Assembly: GCF_001547525.1 (NCBI RefSeq)
Contig: NZ_LNJP01000004.1
Location: forward strand, 558,001 to 622,000
Direction: 5' to 3'
DNA from: Burkholderia anthina
Lineage (GTDB): Bacteria > Pseudomonadota > Gammaproteobacteria > Burkholderiales > Burkholderiaceae
Length of the DNA stretch: 64,000 nt
In this document: in pieces, positions 36,582 to 43,274 of the stretch
Layout of the letters: each line of letters opens with the position of its first letter
Position numbering within the stretch: the first letter of the stretch is position 1
Translations under genes and position numbers: made by a program
Notes under the pieces: generated by a model
What the model was told of the DNA's origin: nothing
Databases searched by the model: none
The model's input: only the letters and a program-made list of their open reading frames with translations

Positions 36582-37001
36582 TCAGGCAAACGGATTTCGC
36601 AAGACCGGACCGCCATCCACTTGCAAGCCGTCGTGCATGTCCTCGGTGTACAGGTATTCACACCCCTCGATCGAAGCAGTTGCCACGATGCAGGCGTCGT
36701 AGAAAGACAAGCGATGCCACTCCGCCAGCCGCCGCGCGAGGTCATGCGCATTGACGGTGAGCGGCACGACATGGCACAAACTCCTGATCGGCTCCAGAAA
36801 CTCCCCTACCTCGCGCCACGGCATCCGCAGTTTGCGGTTGCAGACACTGGCGACCTCATTCAATACCTGGACGCTGATGGTTGGCCGCCGAAGGAACAGC
36901 GCCTCCGCTCGATTTGCCTTGATTGCGTCCTCGGACAGCAGATAAAGCACGACATTGCTGTCGACGAATGATTTCTCCGCCTCAATCCTGCTCATTCGCA
37001 T
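36582..37001 (-). CDS. vapC: PIN-domain ribonuclease toxin (VapC family)
   Basis: A 139-residue PIN domain. Acidic active-site residues are visible in FVDSNVVLYLLSED (first Asp), the Glu of VLNEVASVCNRK, and the Asp residues in LSFYDACIVATA and YTEDMHDG. VapC toxins cut tRNA or rRNA in the cytoplasm and are held by VapB. The start overlaps the antitoxin gene by 20 bases (or 14 if the ATG at 36995 is used), as expected of a coupled pair. The metal-site pattern is intact, so it should be active. Confidence 0.88.
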   Translation of the reverse strand: MRMSRIEAEKSFVDSNVVLYLLSEDAIKANRAEALFLRRPTISVQVLNEVASVCNRKLRMPWREVGEFLEPIRSLCHVVPLTVNAHDLARRLAEWHRLSFYDACIVATASIEGCEYLYTEDMHDGLQVDGGPVLRNPFA

Positions 37002-37215
37002 CGTCCCGGCTGAACTTGAAATCGGCGGGCAACTTGCCCCTGAAACGCCGCAGCCGTTCCAGAAGCTCGTCGGGCCTCGGCTTGCGGCTTACCGCGAACA
37101 CCCGGGGACTGTCGACCACAATCTCGATATCGTCGCCTTCGCGGAGTTCCAGTGCGTCGACCACACTGGCCGGAAGGCGAACCGCCAGGCTATTGCCCCA
37201 CTTTGCAACCTGCAT
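36982..37215 (-). CDS. vapB: AbrB/MazE-type antitoxin (VapB family)
   Basis: A 77-residue antitoxin with a swapped-hairpin AbrB DNA-binding domain at residues 1-45 (MQVAKWGNSLAVRLPASVVDALELREGDDIEI in pieces) and a C-terminal toxin-binding tail (FRGKLPADFKFSRDDANEQD). A GGAG site 9 bases upstream favours the ATG at 37215 over one at 37227. It represses its own operon; a perfect 7-base inverted repeat lies directly upstream. Confidence 0.9.
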   Translation of the reverse strand: MQVAKWGNSLAVRLPASVVDALELREGDDIEIVVDSPRVFAVSRKPRPDELLERLRRFRGKLPADFKFSRDDANEQD

Positions 37216-37228
37216 ATGAGTCTCCATG

Positions 37229-37252
37229 GATATACGGAATGGATTGTATATC
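37229..37252. promoter_or_regulatory. vapBC operator, GATATAC-N10-GTATATC
   Basis: A perfect 7-base inverted repeat with one-turn spacing just upstream of the vapB start, in an AT-rich stretch. Spacing and symmetry fit binding by an AbrB-type VapB dimer pair. Confidence 0.6.
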
Positions 37253-37373
37253 TTTACTGCAAATCCGCAAGTCGGCTGAACGGACAATTCGGCGCCTCGC
37301 GCGTCCCGCTCCCACAACTCGCGCGATAATCGCCCACTTCCGCGCGAACACCGCGCGCCACCGCTCACCCGTG

Positions 37374-38147
37374 ATGACGAAAAAGCCCGACCTCGACCGA
37401 CGCGACTGGATTGCCGGCCTCGAAAAAGGCCTGATGATCCTGGAGGCGTTCGACAGCCAGCACGCGCGCATGACGCCCACGCAAGCCGCCGCGCGCACCG
37501 GCCTCACGCGCACGGCCGCGCGGCGTTACCTGCTGACGCTGGAATCGCTCGGCTACGTGTACACCGACGGCAAGCTGTATGGCCTCACGCCGCGCGTGCT
37601 GCGGGTCGGCTGGTCGTATTTCGATTCGGCGCGCCTGCCGCGCACGGTCCAGCCTTATCTGCAGCAGTTGAGCGCGTCGCTGAACGAATCGGCGTACGTC
37701 AGCGTGCTCGACGGCTGGGAGCTCGTGTTCATCGCGCGCAACGGCGTGTCGCGCGTGATGACGACGGGCTTCGTGCTCGGCGCGCGCGTGCCGGCGCCGC
37801 TGACGTCGCCCGGTGTCGTCCTGCTCGCCCATCATCCCGATCGAGAAGCCGTGCGCGCGTGGCTCGACGAGACCGAGTTGGCGCCGTTCACGCCGCACAC
37901 GATCACCAACAAGGCGCGGCTGCTCGAACAGGTCGACCGGGCGCGCGAAGCCGGCTACGCGGCGATCGAGCAGCAATTGCAGGTCGGCGTACGCGGGATC
38001 GCGGTGCCGCTGAAGAACCGTCACGGCGAAGTCGTCGCCGCGCTGAGCACGAACATGCCGATCGGCGCGGAGACGACCGACGCGGCCGTGCGGCGCGTGC
38101 TGCCGCATCTGCAGGAAGCCGCGCTCGCGATGCTCAACGTGCTGTAG
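37374..38147 (+). CDS. IclR-family transcriptional regulator (PcaR/PobR subgroup)
   Basis: A 257-residue regulator. The N-terminal winged helix-turn-helix includes IAGLEKGLMILEAFDSQHARMTPTQAAARTGLTRTAARRYLLTLESLGYV; the effector domain has the family block QVGVRGIAVPLKNRHGEVVAALSTNMP. This subgroup controls aromatic acid catabolism (protocatechuate, 4-hydroxybenzoate, homogentisate pathways). A palindrome GCGATAATCGC lies 41 bases upstream of the start, and the same CGATAATCGC core is found in the hpd/MHS promoter region 3.8 kb away, so it may regulate those genes. The GATAAT core could alternatively be its own -10 box. Confidence 0.9.
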   Translation: MTKKPDLDRRDWIAGLEKGLMILEAFDSQHARMTPTQAAARTGLTRTAARRYLLTLESLGYVYTDGKLYGLTPRVLRVGWSYFDSARLPRTVQPYLQQLSASLNESAYVSVLDGWELVFIARNGVSRVMTTGFVLGARVPAPLTSPGVVLLAHHPDREAVRAWLDETELAPFTPHTITNKARLLEQVDRAREAGYAAIEQQLQVGVRGIAVPLKNRHGEVVAALSTNMPIGAETTDAAVRRVLPHLQEAALAMLNVL

Positions 38148-38162: not shown

Positions 38163-40460
38163 TTACCCGATCCGCCACCACCGCGGCAGCAAATTGCGCA
38201 CTTCGCGCCGCCGGTAACGGTCGTCGAGATGCACGACGCCCTCGTCGTGCTCGGTGCGGATCACGCGCCCGGCCGCCTGCACGACCTTCTGCAGCCCCGG
38301 ATACAGGTACATGTAGTCGTAACCGTTGCCGAAGCGCGCGTCCATCGCGCGCCGCATCTGCTCGTTGATGTCGTTGACCTGCGGCAGTCCGAGCGTCGCG
38401 ATGAACGCGCCGATCAACCGCTCGCCGACCAGGTCGACGCCTTCCGAGAAGGCGCCGCCCAGCACCGCGAAGCCGACGCCGCGTCCGCCCGCGTCGAAGC
38501 GCGCGAGAAACGCGTCGCGCTCGCTTTCGGCCATGCCGGGCGCCTGCGCCCACACGGGGACGTCCGGATGGCGCGTCTGCATCAGCGCGACCACACGCCC
38601 GAGGTAGTCGAAGCTGCTCAGGAAGCCGAGATAGTTGCCGGGCCGTGCCGCGTATTGCGCGGCGATCAGGTCGGCGATCGGCTCGAGCGAACGATCGCGG
38701 TCGCGCCAGCGCGTCGACACGTGGCTCGCGACGCGCACCGTCAGTTGTTCGGCGCGGAACGGCCCGTCGACGTCGAGCCAGCCGGTATCGCCCGGCAGCC
38801 CGAGCGTGTCGCGATAGAAATGGAACGGGCTCAGCGTGCCCGAGAACAGCACGGTCGCGCGCGCGGCTTCGTAGCGCGGCGCGAGGAACCCGGCCGGGAT
38901 CACGTTGCGCACGCACAGCGTCGACTGGACACGGCGCCGGCGGCCGGCCGTCGCGACGCCGTCGAGCGCCGGCTGGCGCGGCATCGGTTCGCCATGCAGC
39001 GTCGCGTCGAAGATCGACGCGCTGTCGAACGCCTCGGCCAGCACGCCGAACTGGATCGCCTCGAAATGGAAACGCAGCAGCGCGTCGTCGTTCGCGCGAG
39101 GCGCGTCGGTCAGGTGTTCGCCGATCGCCGCGACGAGGTTCTGCACGGCCGACACGATCGGGCCCGGCACCTCGGGATAGGCGGCATAGCGCTCCGCCTG
39201 CGCGCGATTGAGCGTCCCCCACGCGCGGGCGAGCCGGTCGAATGCCTTGCGCAGCGCGGCGGGCGCGGCTTCGCGCGCGGCCGCGAACGCGAATGGATCG
39301 AGCGACGCGCTGTACATCTTGCGGGCGCGGTCGAGCAGGTTGTGCGCTTCGTCCACGAGCACGCCGACGCGCCACTGGTTCTGCTGCGCGAGCGTATGCA
39401 GCATCGCGCTGCCGTCGTAGTAGTAGTTGTAGTCGCCGATCATCATGTCCGACCAGCGCGCGAGCTCCTGCGCCAGGTAGTACGGGCAGACGTCGTGCGC
39501 GAGCGCGGCGGCGCGCACGGTCTCGCGATCGAGGAGCCCGGCCTCGATCGCCGCATCGCGCGCGGCCGGCAGCCGGTCGTAGAAGCCCTTCGCGAGCGGG
39601 CACGATTCGCCGTGGCACGCGTTGTCCGGATGCTCGCACGCCTTGTCGCGCGCGACGAGTTCCAGCACACGCAGCGGCAAAGCGGGCGTGCCGGCGCCGA
39701 GCGTCGTCGCCGCTTCGAGCGCGAGCGCGCGGCCGGGTGTTTTCGCGGTCAGGAAAAATACGTGATCGAGTTCGCCCTCGCCGCAGGCCTTCAGCAACGG
39801 GAACACGGTGCCGAGCGTCTTGCCGATGCCGGTCGGCGCCTGCGCCATCAGGCAGCGTTCGTCGCGTGCCGCGCGATAGACGGCCACCGCCAGCTCGCGC
39901 TGGCCGCTGCGGAACTGCCCATGCGGAAACGCGAGCGCGCGCAGCGCCGCGTCGCGCGCGGCGCGATGGGCCGTCTCGCGTTCGGCCCAGCCGACGAAGC
40001 ACGCGCACTGCTCGGCGAAGAACGTCGCGAGCGCGCCGGCATCGAGCGTTTCCGTCAGCACGGTCTCGCGCTCGGACACGATGTCGAAATACACGAGCGC
40101 GACGTCGATTTCATTCAGATCGCGCGCAGCGCACATCAGGTGCGCATAGACCTTCGCCTGCGCCCAATGCAGCGCGCGGTGGTTGGCCGGCATCGCATCG
40201 AGGCTGCCGCGGTAGGTCTTGATTTCCTCGAGCCGGTTCGCCACCGGATCGTAGCCGTCCGCGCGGCCGCGCACGGTGAGCATGCCCCACGTGCCCGTCA
40301 GCGCGATCTCGGTTTCGTAGCGCGCGCCGCGCTTCGACGTGACCGCGCCGTGGCCGGCGATGCCTTCGAGCGCGGTCGGTGCGGGCGTGAAGCGCAGGTC
40401 GAGATCGCCGCGCCGCGCGGTGAACTCGCACATCGCCCGCACCGCGACGACGTAGCTCAT
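38163..40460 (-). CDS. PD-(D/E)XK nuclease fused to XPD/Rad3-like DNA helicase
   Basis: A 765-residue protein. Residues 30-110 show RecB/Cas4-type nuclease motifs: H37 in GIAGH, D68 in GRADGYD, E79-x-K81 in LEEIKTYRG, and Q101-x3-Y105 in HWAQAKVYAHLM. From residue 180 it is a superfamily 2 helicase: Q-motif FRSGQREL, Walker A APTGIGKT (208-215), cysteines for an iron-sulfur cluster (KACEHPDNACHGESCPL and CPYY), DEAH box LVDEAHNL, and the C-terminal GFAVLGGAFSEGVDL and QAAGRVIR motifs. It would unwind DNA 5' to 3' and cut it. The start overlaps the FAN1-type nuclease stop by 4 bases; both follow a LexA-type box. Confidence 0.88.
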   Translation of the reverse strand: MSYVVAVRAMCEFTARRGDLDLRFTPAPTALEGIAGHGAVTSKRGARYETEIALTGTWGMLTVRGRADGYDPVANRLEEIKTYRGSLDAMPANHRALHWAQAKVYAHLMCAARDLNEIDVALVYFDIVSERETVLTETLDAGALATFFAEQCACFVGWAERETAHRAARDAALRALAFPHGQFRSGQRELAVAVYRAARDERCLMAQAPTGIGKTLGTVFPLLKACGEGELDHVFFLTAKTPGRALALEAATTLGAGTPALPLRVLELVARDKACEHPDNACHGESCPLAKGFYDRLPAARDAAIEAGLLDRETVRAAALAHDVCPYYLAQELARWSDMMIGDYNYYYDGSAMLHTLAQQNQWRVGVLVDEAHNLLDRARKMYSASLDPFAFAAAREAAPAALRKAFDRLARAWGTLNRAQAERYAAYPEVPGPIVSAVQNLVAAIGEHLTDAPRANDDALLRFHFEAIQFGVLAEAFDSASIFDATLHGEPMPRQPALDGVATAGRRRRVQSTLCVRNVIPAGFLAPRYEAARATVLFSGTLSPFHFYRDTLGLPGDTGWLDVDGPFRAEQLTVRVASHVSTRWRDRDRSLEPIADLIAAQYAARPGNYLGFLSSFDYLGRVVALMQTRHPDVPVWAQAPGMAESERDAFLARFDAGGRGVGFAVLGGAFSEGVDLVGERLIGAFIATLGLPQVNDINEQMRRAMDARFGNGYDYMYLYPGLQKVVQAAGRVIRTEHDEGVVHLDDRYRRREVRNLLPRWWRIG

Positions 40461-42151
40461 GCGGACAACCCCGCCGCCTCGGCGTGCGCGACGCCCTCGC
40501 CGGCCCACTCGACGTCGACGACGCGTACCGGCATGCGGTGCGCGAGGCAGTAGGCGAGCCAGCGCGTCTGGTTGTCCTGCAGCCGGTCGCCGGGGCCCTT
40601 CACCTCGATCAGCTCGTAGCGGCGTTCGTCGGGCCAGAAGCGCACGAGATCGGGCAAGCCGGACCGGTTGCCGCGGATATCCGCGAGCAGGCGCGTGAAC
40701 CACAGCCGCAGGTGCTCGGGCGGCAGGCACGCGAGCGCTTCGTCGAGCAACGCGTCGGTCAGCACGCCCCAGAACACGAACGGCGACTGCACGCCGGCCT
40801 TCGTCGCGAAATGCCGACGGATCGTGTCGCGGTACGCGCCCGAATCGAGCTGCGCGAAGCACGCGTCGAAGGCCGCCGCGCGACGCGCGGCGAAATCGGG
40901 CGCGTGCAGGTCGGCCGGGCCGCGCTGGAACGGGTGAAAGAACGCGCCGGGCACCGCCGCGAACACAGGTTCCCAGCACAGCAGCCCGAACAGCGAATTG
41001 ATCAGCGTGTTTTCGACGTAGTGGACCGGCGACGCCGGCTGCGCGAGATGGTCGCGCACCGCGAATTCGACGCTGACGGATGCGTCGGGACGCGCGAGCA
41101 CGAGCGTCTCGCGCGGGACCGCCGCGGCGGCGGCCGCGCGTTCGACCCGCTGGCCGGCGCGGCGCTGCAGGCGCGGCAGCATGCGCTCGACGCGCTGGCG
41201 CTCCTCGTCGCTCTCGAAGCCGCCGCGCGCGTCGAGCGCCAGCGCGAGCGCGTCGCCGTCGCGCCCGCAGCGTTCGAGTACGCGGATGCGCCGATGGCGG
41301 CTGCCGGGCCATGCGCTGCGTGTGTACGCGTCGAGCGCGGCGCACCAGTCGGCACGGCGTTCGCATGCCTGGCCCAGCGCGAACAGCAGCTTCGCGCGGC
41401 GCGTCGCGAGCCACGGCTGCGCACAGTCGACCGCGTCCAGCGCGCGGATCAGATCGTCGAACGGCAGATCGTCGGGCCATGCGTCGAGCGCGTCGCGGCA
41501 CATCTGCAGCGCGAGATATGCATCGACGTCGCCACGCTGCTGGAACGCGCGCGACGACGGCGCGATCGGCACGCTTTCGTACTGGAACACGCCGAGATCG
41601 GCGAGCACGAACTCGCTCCAGTCTTGATGCAGATTGCCGAAGAACATCAGCCGCAGCCGATCGCACAGCGGGCCGACCGTCACGCGCAGCGCGCGGTCGT
41701 CGGCCTGCGCGCACCACGCGTCGAGCGGTTGCGCGACGTCGTGCGCGGGCCTCAGCCGTTCGAGCCAGTCGGCCTTGCGCTCGCCAGCATGCGCGGCGAG
41801 CGACGGAAAGATGCGCAGCAGATCGGCCTTGGTCGACAGCGCGAACAGCTCGTCGAGCGTGAGCGCGGGCGCCGGATCGACCCAGCCGAGCGCGACGAGC
41901 GGCGCGGCGGCGTCGAGCGTGCAGCCGATCTCGTCGTACACGAGCTTGCTCGCGCGGAAGTCGCACCCGTTGCGCATCAGCATCCGCACGAGCAGCGCGC
42001 GCGACGCCTGCGGCAGCGCCGCGAACTGCCGGACGAACGCATGCTCGTGCGCGTCGAACAGGTCGTCGTAACGCTCGCCGAGCCAGGCCAGCGCGCGTTC
42101 GAAATTGGTCAGGTAGTAAAACGCCGGAGGCGTCGGCGAAGCAGGCGTCAC
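40457..42151 (-). CDS. FAN1-type VRR-NUC structure-specific nuclease
   Basis: A 564-residue protein. The N-terminal half begins with the family block YYLTNFERALAWLGERYDDLF and includes LMFFGNLHQDWSEFVLADLG, both characteristic of bacterial FAN1 homologues. The C-terminal VRR-NUC domain holds the PD-(D/E)XK site: GLPDLVRFWP (Asp) and YELIEVKGPGDRLQDNQTRWLAY (Glu-Val-Lys). FAN1 trims 5' flaps and unhooks DNA interstrand crosslinks. The start is a GTG at 42151 because the frame opens just there. It lies 12 bases from a perfect LexA-type box and overlaps the downstream nuclease-helicase gene, so the two should be induced together by DNA damage. Confidence 0.9.
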   Translation of the reverse strand: MTPASPTPPAFYYLTNFERALAWLGERYDDLFDAHEHAFVRQFAALPQASRALLVRMLMRNGCDFRASKLVYDEIGCTLDAAAPLVALGWVDPAPALTLDELFALSTKADLLRIFPSLAAHAGERKADWLERLRPAHDVAQPLDAWCAQADDRALRVTVGPLCDRLRLMFFGNLHQDWSEFVLADLGVFQYESVPIAPSSRAFQQRGDVDAYLALQMCRDALDAWPDDLPFDDLIRALDAVDCAQPWLATRRAKLLFALGQACERRADWCAALDAYTRSAWPGSRHRRIRVLERCGRDGDALALALDARGGFESDEERQRVERMLPRLQRRAGQRVERAAAAAAVPRETLVLARPDASVSVEFAVRDHLAQPASPVHYVENTLINSLFGLLCWEPVFAAVPGAFFHPFQRGPADLHAPDFAARRAAAFDACFAQLDSGAYRDTIRRHFATKAGVQSPFVFWGVLTDALLDEALACLPPEHLRLWFTRLLADIRGNRSGLPDLVRFWPDERRYELIEVKGPGDRLQDNQTRWLAYCLAHRMPVRVVDVEWAGEGVAHAEAAGLSA

Positions 42152-42163
42152 GGGGATCGATCA

Positions 42164-42179
42164 CTGTACATTTGTACAG
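42164..42179. promoter_or_regulatory. LexA (SOS) box CTGTACATTTGTACAG
   Basis: A 16-base near-perfect palindrome (CTGTACA-TT-TGTACAG) that satisfies the CTGT-N8-ACAG consensus of proteobacterial LexA. It ends 12 bases upstream of the FAN1-type start, overlapping the likely promoter, where LexA would block transcription. Confidence 0.8.
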
Positions 42180-42248
42180 GTCGCAATCATATCAAATGTG
42201 GCGGCCAATGCCGCACGCGGCATTGCCGTTCCGCTGCCCCGGCTTCGG

Positions 42249-43151
42249 TCAGAACTGGTAATTCACCGACATGTCGAACACGCCGTTGGTCGACTGCTGC
42301 GTGATCGGGCTGCGCGCCGCGCGGCCGACGAGCTGCTCGAGCGCGCCGTCCATCGTGACGAACCAGTGCTTGTTCACGAACCACACCATCGTCACGCCCA
42401 CGCCGGCCGACTTGATCCCGGCCCCGGACGAATAGGCCGGCAGCCCCGAGCGCGCCGCCGCCCCCTGGTTCACGCCGAACCAGCTGTTCATGTAGCGGGA
42501 ATCGGCGAATGACACGGTGGGCCCCGCGAACCAGAAGAAGCGTTCGTTGCTGCCGGGCATCGGCATGTACGCGGAAAAATCGCCGGTCCAGCCGTTCGAC
42601 CCGCCGATGCTGCGCCGCACGTCCGCGCGCAGCACGAGCGGGAAATCCTTCGAGACCACGTAGTCGGCCGCGAGCTTCATCACGGGCGCCGCATTGATGT
42701 TGTCGAGACCGTTCAGATGGCCGAGATCATCGGCCGAACGGCGCCCGAGGTCATAGCCGACCGACAAACTCACGCGCCAGTTCGGCCCGCGCAGCACGTT
42801 CGCGCCGAGCCCCTCGCCGGTCGACAGGAAGAACAGGTCGCGATAGCGGATATCGAAATTCGGGCCGCCCATCACGCGATAGCGGTCGGAGCCCGCATAG
42901 CGCGGCTGCAGCGTCATCGCGGCGCCGACGCTGACCTGCCAGGTCGGGATATTCGGATCGAAGAGTTTGCGCAGCGGCACGCCCGCCGTGTATTGCCATT
43001 CCCCGAGCGGCGAAGGCGTCTGGGCCGACGCGTCGCGGGCGCCGGCGGCGGCGAGCGCCGCGAATGCCGACAGGCTGGATACGAACCGGCGTGCGCCGGG
43101 GGACAGCAACAGGCGAGCAACAGGGGTCAAGGCGGTCTCCGTCGGTTGCAT
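42249..43151 (-). CDS. MipA/OmpV-family outer membrane protein
   Basis: A 300-residue beta-barrel protein with a signal region ending near DASAQ (about residue 43). Family features: the VSVGAAMTLQPRYAGSDRYRVMGGPNFDIRYRDLFFLS block, LGRRSADDLGHLNGLDNI, and a final aromatic NYQF for outer membrane insertion. MipA was described as a scaffold between MltA and PBP1B; OmpV-type members act as porin-like or osmotic stress proteins. The start ATG at 43151 gives the better signal peptide than an upstream frame. Monocistronic. Confidence 0.85.
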   Translation of the reverse strand: MQPTETALTPVARLLLSPGARRFVSSLSAFAALAAAGARDASAQTPSPLGEWQYTAGVPLRKLFDPNIPTWQVSVGAAMTLQPRYAGSDRYRVMGGPNFDIRYRDLFFLSTGEGLGANVLRGPNWRVSLSVGYDLGRRSADDLGHLNGLDNINAAPVMKLAADYVVSKDFPLVLRADVRRSIGGSNGWTGDFSAYMPMPGSNERFFWFAGPTVSFADSRYMNSWFGVNQGAAARSGLPAYSSGAGIKSAGVGVTMVWFVNKHWFVTMDGALEQLVGRAARSPITQQSTNGVFDMSVNYQF

Positions 43152-43274
43152 GAAAGGAACCTGAGGGAAAGCGCGTCGCGCTTCGTCGGCTGCAACGGCA
43201 CGCAGCCTGCGGCGCGAACGTAGCATGCGCTGAATTAATGGACATCCTACGCGACGCGCGCACAGACGCAAAGC

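Follow-up and report, generated by a model that had tools for sequence, protein, structure and literature searches.

A FAN1 nuclease and a nuclease-helicase encoded in a predicted LexA-controlled operon of Burkholderia anthina

The two genes and their products

The window analyzed here is a stretch of 64,000 nucleotides of Burkholderia anthina (NCBI RefSeq assembly GCF_001547525.1, contig NZ_LNJP01000004.1, positions 558,001 to 622,000 of the forward strand). It encodes a bacterial FAN1 nuclease, related to the human FAN1 that repairs crosslinks, and, directly following it, a helicase of the DinG/XPD type with a predicted RecB-type nuclease domain at its N-terminus, and a predicted LexA (SOS) box lies upstream of both (Table 1). 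We propose that the two genes are a LexA-repressed DNA-repair operon; both enzymes are of known kinds with solved relatives, and what is new is their wiring to the SOS response and their pairing. A preliminary description, made from the sequence alone, had claimed that a FAN1-type VRR-NUC gene overlaps the helicase gene by four bases and that a perfect LexA box ends 12 bases ahead of the operon, and both claims are confirmed by the coordinates, by the shared ATGA and by the 12 nt found between the box (CTGTACATTTGTACAG) and the FAN1 start.

Table 1. Features of the operon, with positions in the window
Feature	Position	Strand	Remarks
FAN1 nuclease gene, bacterial type	40457..42151	-	GTG start, 564 aa, complete
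FAN1_HTH domain, residues 11-92	41876..42121	-	PF21315, E 1.2e-35
FANC_SAP DNA-binding domain, residues 96-146	41714..41866	-	PF18081, E 6.7e-13
VRR_NUC nuclease domain, residues 438-549	40505..40840	-	PF08774, E 1.8e-33
Overlap of FAN1 stop and helicase start, 4 nt (ATGA)	40457..40460	-	
DinG/XPD-type nuclease-helicase gene	38163..40460	-	ATG start, 765 aa
RecB-type PD-(D/E)XK domain, predicted, residues 1-175	39936..40460	-	H37, D68, E79-x-K81, Q101-x3-Y105
XPD/DinG helicase part, residues 176-765	38166..39935	-	G211-x-G-K214, D370-E-A-H373, Q728..R735
Iron-sulfur cluster region, C275, C282, C287, C325	39486..39638	-	DEAD_2; 63/63 invariant
LexA (SOS) box, predicted; operon strand CTGTACAAATGTACAG	42164..42179	-	Pattern match and conservation upstream of FAN1 in relatives
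Extended -10-like element TGA-TATGAT	42186..42194	-	By-eye reading

The FAN1 protein combines HTH, SAP and VRR-NUC domains within a single chain, each scoring far over the Pfam cut-off, and gave no match at E<=0.001 in NCBIfam or PADLOC. Its best match among solved structures is the FAN1 of Pseudomonas aeruginosa (PaFAN1), with 601 bits across residues 3-550, and its residues D501, E516, and K518 align to D507, E522, and K524, which are named as the catalytic residues of PaFAN1 in the literature (PMC9635880). Judged by these matches, the encoded FAN1 is a member of the crystallised FAN1 family.

The second protein carries the Pfam domains DEAD_2 and Helicase_C_2, and its residue conservation was read from 63 aligned helicase homologues, the most distant of which are approximately 30% identical. 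Invariant in all 63 are G211, G213, K214, D370, E371, H373, Q728, G731, R732, and R735 of the Walker A, DEAH and VI motifs as well as the four cluster cysteines, and the third position of the DEAH motif varies (A in 46, S in 17), so that domains, motifs and cysteines bear out the earlier assignment to the iron-sulfur Rad3/XPD-type helicases. The equivalog cut-offs of NCBIfam were missed with 74 bits vs 680 for YoaA and 63 vs 598 for DinG, and by its scores the protein is a relative that is neither E. coli DinG nor YoaA. Around residues 744-748 it reads VVHL-DDR, and the other 20 aligned members are one residue longer (e.g., LIDDR); from this alignment, one codon is taken to have been lost in frame in the B. 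anthina strain.

The N-terminal domain shows the RecB-like motif at exactly the positions claimed before (Table 1), with H37, D68, E79, K81, Q101, and Y105 invariant in all 63 homologues. In the model of the full-length protein (pLDDT 89), residues 30-140 follow an alpha-beta-beta-beta-alpha-beta order that fits the PD-(D/E)XK core. A profile of the N-terminal part built without Finegoldia members matches residues 5-183 of the DinG helicase of F. magna (9kqh) with E 1.4e-44, and the crystallised construct of that helicase bears a D-to-A exchange at the equivalent of D68. The rows of the fold search other than 9kqh span residues 159-765 only, and as none covers residues 1-158 they exclude no fold for this part. 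Pfam PDDEXK_1 matches 16 of the 63 homologues at E<=0.1, the protein of the window not among them, and the structure 4ic1 was matched with E 0.007 by the full profile and at E<=1 not by the N-terminal one. An Internalin-J match of the N-terminal profile (E 0.00016) was taken as spurious, all five of its stretches being weak. Cysteines such as those that hold the cluster of Cas4 and AddB are not conserved in the nuclease domain (C11 and C152 are C in 21/63, C110 in 35/63), and an iron-sulfur cluster at this place was therefore rejected; from the earlier label "RecB/Cas4-type" the RecB-like motif stands and the Cas4 cysteine set falls.

Gene pairing and the LexA box across genomes

The pairing of the two genes was surveyed in a sample of 398 genomes of the phylum, with thresholds of E<=1e-30 for the helicase and E<=1e-20 for FAN1. 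The helicase was found in 43 genomes, FAN1 in 49, and both in 36, and in 35 of these 36 the two genes are adjacent on the same strand, separated by -13 to +62 nt, in agreement with the earlier expectation that they are conserved together. The co-occurrence corresponds to a Fisher odds ratio of 135 with shared ancestry ignored. The sole genome with an unlinked pair (G249) holds the genes on different draft contigs, each gene well inside its contig. In a second set of named genomes, comprising the best 80 of 489 helicase matches and containing many close Burkholderia relatives, FAN1 adjoins the helicase at 71 of 80 loci. No published statement of this pairing or of its SOS control was found in the accessible portions of the literature; a 2006 study by Iyer et al. 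is said to describe the gene neighbourhoods of VRR-NUC proteins and may mention the adjacency. Most groups of VRR-NUC proteins, the FAN1 group included, are reported to adjoin genes of DNA metabolism (PMC9635880).

The box of B. anthina is the sole perfect CTGT-N8-ACAG of the window (0.28 expected), and since such a site is present in 26 of 100 shuffles of the window, one lone site means little. The weight of the box comes from its conservation across relatives. Among 28 Burkholderia loci, 15 of the 16 box positions are invariant, and identity amounts to 97% in the box, 85% in the preceding 30 nt, 68% in the region 31-80 nt before it, and 91% between box and start. For the named loci with enough flanking sequence (69/71), the best box within approximately 250 nt before FAN1 is perfect in 35, has one mismatch in 30 and two in 4, and random windows of 440 nt hold a perfect box in 0.45% and a one-mismatch box in 7.8%. 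In the 36 genomes of the phylum sample that have both genes, the last 120 nt before FAN1 contain a box with 0, 1, 2, or 3 mismatches in 9, 16, 10, and 1 cases, respectively, vs 0.07% perfect and 1.6% one-mismatch boxes in 5,912 random windows. The perfect boxes span four families (f1, f2, f5, f15), and in family f20 a single one-mismatch box is present among eight genomes. Another form, ATGGAT-N4-GAACAG, which has two mismatches, recurs 26-53 nt before FAN1 in three f20 genomes that miss the standard box (L169, L170, L174).

Upstream of the box, the sequence TGA-TATGAT was read as a candidate extended -10 element, from which the predicted start point would coincide with the edge of the LexA box. 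The element is mostly, not completely, kept in the 28 Burkholderia loci, and a scanner for consensus -35/-10 promoters, which requires a -35 element, found none at the operon.

The box also accompanies copies of the genes that stand apart. In G249, FAN1 and the helicase each lie behind their own perfect box. Among the seven genomes with a helicase and no FAN1, two have a perfect box (G255, G328) and one a one-mismatch box (G379), and a perfect box precedes the helicase in each of two further records, from Caballeronia and Cupriavidus, that have no FAN1 within 3 kb. At the nine named loci without FAN1, 0 perfect and six one-mismatch boxes were found within 400 nt, and the looser form CTG[TG]-N8-[AC]CAG, chosen post hoc from these very sites, occurs at seven of nine vs 74 of 2,255 random windows. 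The earlier claim of a LexA box thus extends to several families and to some separated copies of each gene, and LexA control seems to be tied to each gene and not to the operon alone, yet not to be universal.

In five Gram-positive records of the helicase, the LexA-type box of these bacteria (CGAAC-N4-GTTCG) was sought. Two Listeria records of one species (L221, L227) have a one-mismatch box (CGAACGTAGGTTCT) approximately 52 nt before the helicase and beside a likely -10 element, Paenibacillus has a two-mismatch site, and upstream of the helicase of Enterococcus and of Acetoanaerobium no Gram-positive box within three mismatches was found. Among 3,000 random windows of 214 nt drawn from these loci with the sites left in, the best match has one mismatch in 1.7% and two in 6.4%, and SOS control of the helicase in Gram-positive bacteria is a lead only.

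The genus of P. aeruginosa FAN1's closest relative provides a link to expression data. Among 25 genomes of this genus, G407 encodes the closest relative of PaFAN1 (93% identity across the 387 aa used in the search). Its perfect box (CTGTATGCATGAACAG) ends 18 nt before the GTG at which FAN1 is taken to start, and the helicase begins approximately 28 nt past the aligned FAN1 end. In each of the 25, a box with at most one mismatch is present and the helicase is matched next to FAN1; the FAN1 gene of G412 appears to be interrupted. A 2026 study on P. aeruginosa lists PA1865 (FAN1) and PA1866 among UV-C-induced genes that are not known members of the LexA, Prt, and Alp regulons, and reports that PA1865 is also induced by ciprofloxacin (PMC12796719). 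From the gene order of the G407 type, PA1866 would be the helicase. Because the closest relative has a perfect box at this place, the comparison points to PA1865/PA1866 as a direct target of LexA that has escaped notice. PA1044/PA1045, the DinG pair already known to be controlled by LexA, was dropped as a candidate for the orthologues since the study places FAN1 at PA1865.

Proposed mechanism and rival explanations

Established here are the two genes with their domains, catalytic residues and overlap, and the conservation of both their adjacency and the LexA box. In our judgment, these findings are best accounted for by a LexA-repressed two-gene DNA-repair operon, from which FAN1 and the nuclease-helicase are co-made after damage and act on crosslinks or flaps; we regard this as probable, with room for doubt. 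Damage induction of PA1865/PA1866 and flap cutting by FAN1 are taken from published relatives; 5'-flap endonuclease and crosslink unhooking activity is reported for PaFAN1 (PMC9635880, PMC12796719). For B. anthina itself we infer repression and induction, the start point, the substrate, the polarity of the nuclease and the joint action of both proteins.

LexA would occupy the box at the start point of the promoter, and DNA damage would lead to cleavage of LexA and to a single message for both genes, with the helicase made by translational coupling over the 4-nt overlap. Helicases of the DinG/XPD family move 5'-to-3', and most likely the helicase would load on single-stranded DNA next to a lesion, a stalled fork or a flap and move in this direction, thereby opening the damaged or crosslinked DNA. 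The RecB-type nuclease may then trim strand ends, and FAN1 could bind the resulting 5' flap and cut it stepwise, which would unhook the interstrand crosslink. Such joint processing of crosslinks or flaps by both proteins would be plausible. To our knowledge, the cellular use of bacterial FAN1 has been little explored, though structure and chemistry of PaFAN1 have been studied; the conserved box and the usual partner helicase would assign bacterial FAN1 to the SOS response and identify the protein with which it probably works.

Several observations weigh against the proposed operon. Among the 36 genomes that have the pair, 11 lack a box with at most one mismatch in the 120 nt before FAN1, seven of them in family f20, and a conserved LexA operator at the promoter is predicted with this restriction. 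Among the 16 one-mismatch boxes, two (G138, G174, CTGGCCAGCAAAACAG) deviate in form and may be chance, as may a few one-mismatch boxes that lie far upstream of FAN1 at the named loci (L050, L066). None of four genomes examined, out of 13 with FAN1 only, has a box with two or fewer mismatches, and four of the eight lone or unlinked helicases (G207, G389, G225, G019) have no box with one mismatch or fewer within 400 nt. FAN1 is absent from 7 of the 43 genomes that have the helicase, and no FAN1 was found within the flanks fetched of the five Gram-positive records. In P. aeruginosa, PA1865 is repressed by hydrogen peroxide and, in the accessible text, unassigned to LexA (PMC12796719). The model of residues 1-170 predicted from the single sequence is poor (pLDDT 40). 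Finally, the B. anthina genome contains 33 CTGT-N8-ACAG sites vs 18 for a reversed control, so that about half of these sites are perhaps chance.

This last count, together with the frequency of perfect sites in the shuffled window, would suit a palindrome that is bound by another repressor, or a chance palindrome drifting with its lineage. The open reading frames were read beside 21 of the 33 sites, that of the operon excluded, with gene names assigned by eye, and 7 of the 21 boxes precede recognised genes, namely lexA (two boxes), recA, uvrA, and imuA-like, YedK/SRAP-like, and PA0069-like genes. One of the sequences, CTGTAGGCGAAAACAG, occurs six times in the genome (including C1:214162 and C3:1689846), the two copies that were read adjoin the same spurious-looking open reading frame (L001, L092), and it is probably a repeated element such as the rRNA operons and not a LexA operator. 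The presence of the motif ahead of the presumed recA, lexA, and uvrA genes of the genome, the equal place and form of the box in several families and the independent boxes of separated genes all argue for LexA; a chance origin was set aside on the conservation counts, and an explanation by chance or by another repressor appears very unlikely.

The main rival accepts the SOS control and holds that FAN1 and the nuclease-helicase are separate repair tools sharing a promoter, which act on different lesions and never on the same DNA molecule. The helicase does not need FAN1, because it is found without it in the genomes and Gram-positive records given above, more distant FAN1 proteins occur without the helicase in 13 of 49 genomes, and the unlinked genes of G249 both keep their boxes. 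The adjacency in 35 of 36 genomes and the overlap or short gaps argue instead for a shared task or for matched amounts, and we consider separate tools a serious but unlikely alternative to the two-protein operon.

The helicase was further weighed as the DinG of a type IV CRISPR system or as part of an anti-phage defence. PADLOC model PDLC01439 (typeIV_DinG, CAS-IV-A) matches its residues 177-761 with 369 bits, the helicase fold is common to CasDinG structures, and distant relatives of approximately 25% identity over 92-99% of the length reside on three Legionella plasmids (H13-H15, 74-137 kb). Yet only 15 of 72,556 plasmid records match at E<=1e-5, and those other than the three Legionella records are 0.48-3.5 Mb long. 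FAN1, whose conserved partner the helicase gene is, has no PADLOC match, and no cas genes are among the open reading frames read, though the window as a whole was not screened for them. Of the solved structures, F. magna DinG is the closest relative, the single-sequence search of solved structures returned no CasDinG, CasDinG ranks far lower in the fold search, and 8s35, a DEAD/DEAH helicase of the type IV-A3 complex, is only a weak match of the family profile (E 0.00068). The CRISPR or defence reading was set aside on gene context and relatives, and we hold it to be exceedingly improbable.

A bolder version of the proposed operon would be an SOS-induced two-protein machine for crosslink unhooking, in which FAN1 cooperates closely with an XPD/FANCJ-like helicase bearing a nuclease of its own. 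It would parallel the FAN1-FANCJ axis of humans in minimal form, and its helicase half would have remained LexA-controlled across phyla even without FAN1 and, in Listeria, with another type of box. We consider this version doubtful.

The surroundings of the operon comprise a gene for an IclR-type regulator, which converges on the operon end (37152-38147, forward strand), and upstream a gene for a MipA-family protein (42249-43271, reverse strand). Approximately 0.8 kb from the operon end, a MazE/AbrB-type antitoxin gene (PF04014) is followed by a PIN-domain gene (PF01850) (36582-37368, reverse strand); by its domains, this PIN/AbrB pair is a VapBC-like toxin-antitoxin system.

Comparison with known systems

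The DinG helicase of F. magna with single-stranded DNA (9kqh, released 2025-12-03) is matched by the helicase along its length, and it differs in being approximately 30% identical and from a Gram-positive source; no paper on 9kqh or the structure of the F. magna helicase was found. With XPD/Rad3 and FANCJ the protein shares the nature of an iron-sulfur helicase and profile matches to XPD and FANCJ (9ej9, E 3.7e-35), whereas these enzymes are not known to have an N-terminal nuclease and work in TFIIH or in the Fanconi pathway. The DinG of Staphylococcus aureus (8zef, 9ii8) is likewise a bacterial DinG helicase, with 3'-5' exonuclease in its record name, but its N-terminal part is a DnaQ-type exonuclease and not a RecB-type PD-(D/E)XK domain.

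The nearest likeness of the first gene is PaFAN1 (PA1865; 4r89, 5y7g), by its score and aligned catalytic residues and by the helicase and box that stand alongside its close relative in G407. It differs in that PaFAN1 is treated alone in the accessible parts of the literature and that its induction by damage is described as outside the known regulons. The conserved LexA box and the usual partner helicase would offer a simple cause for this hitherto unexplained damage induction of PA1865/PA1866.

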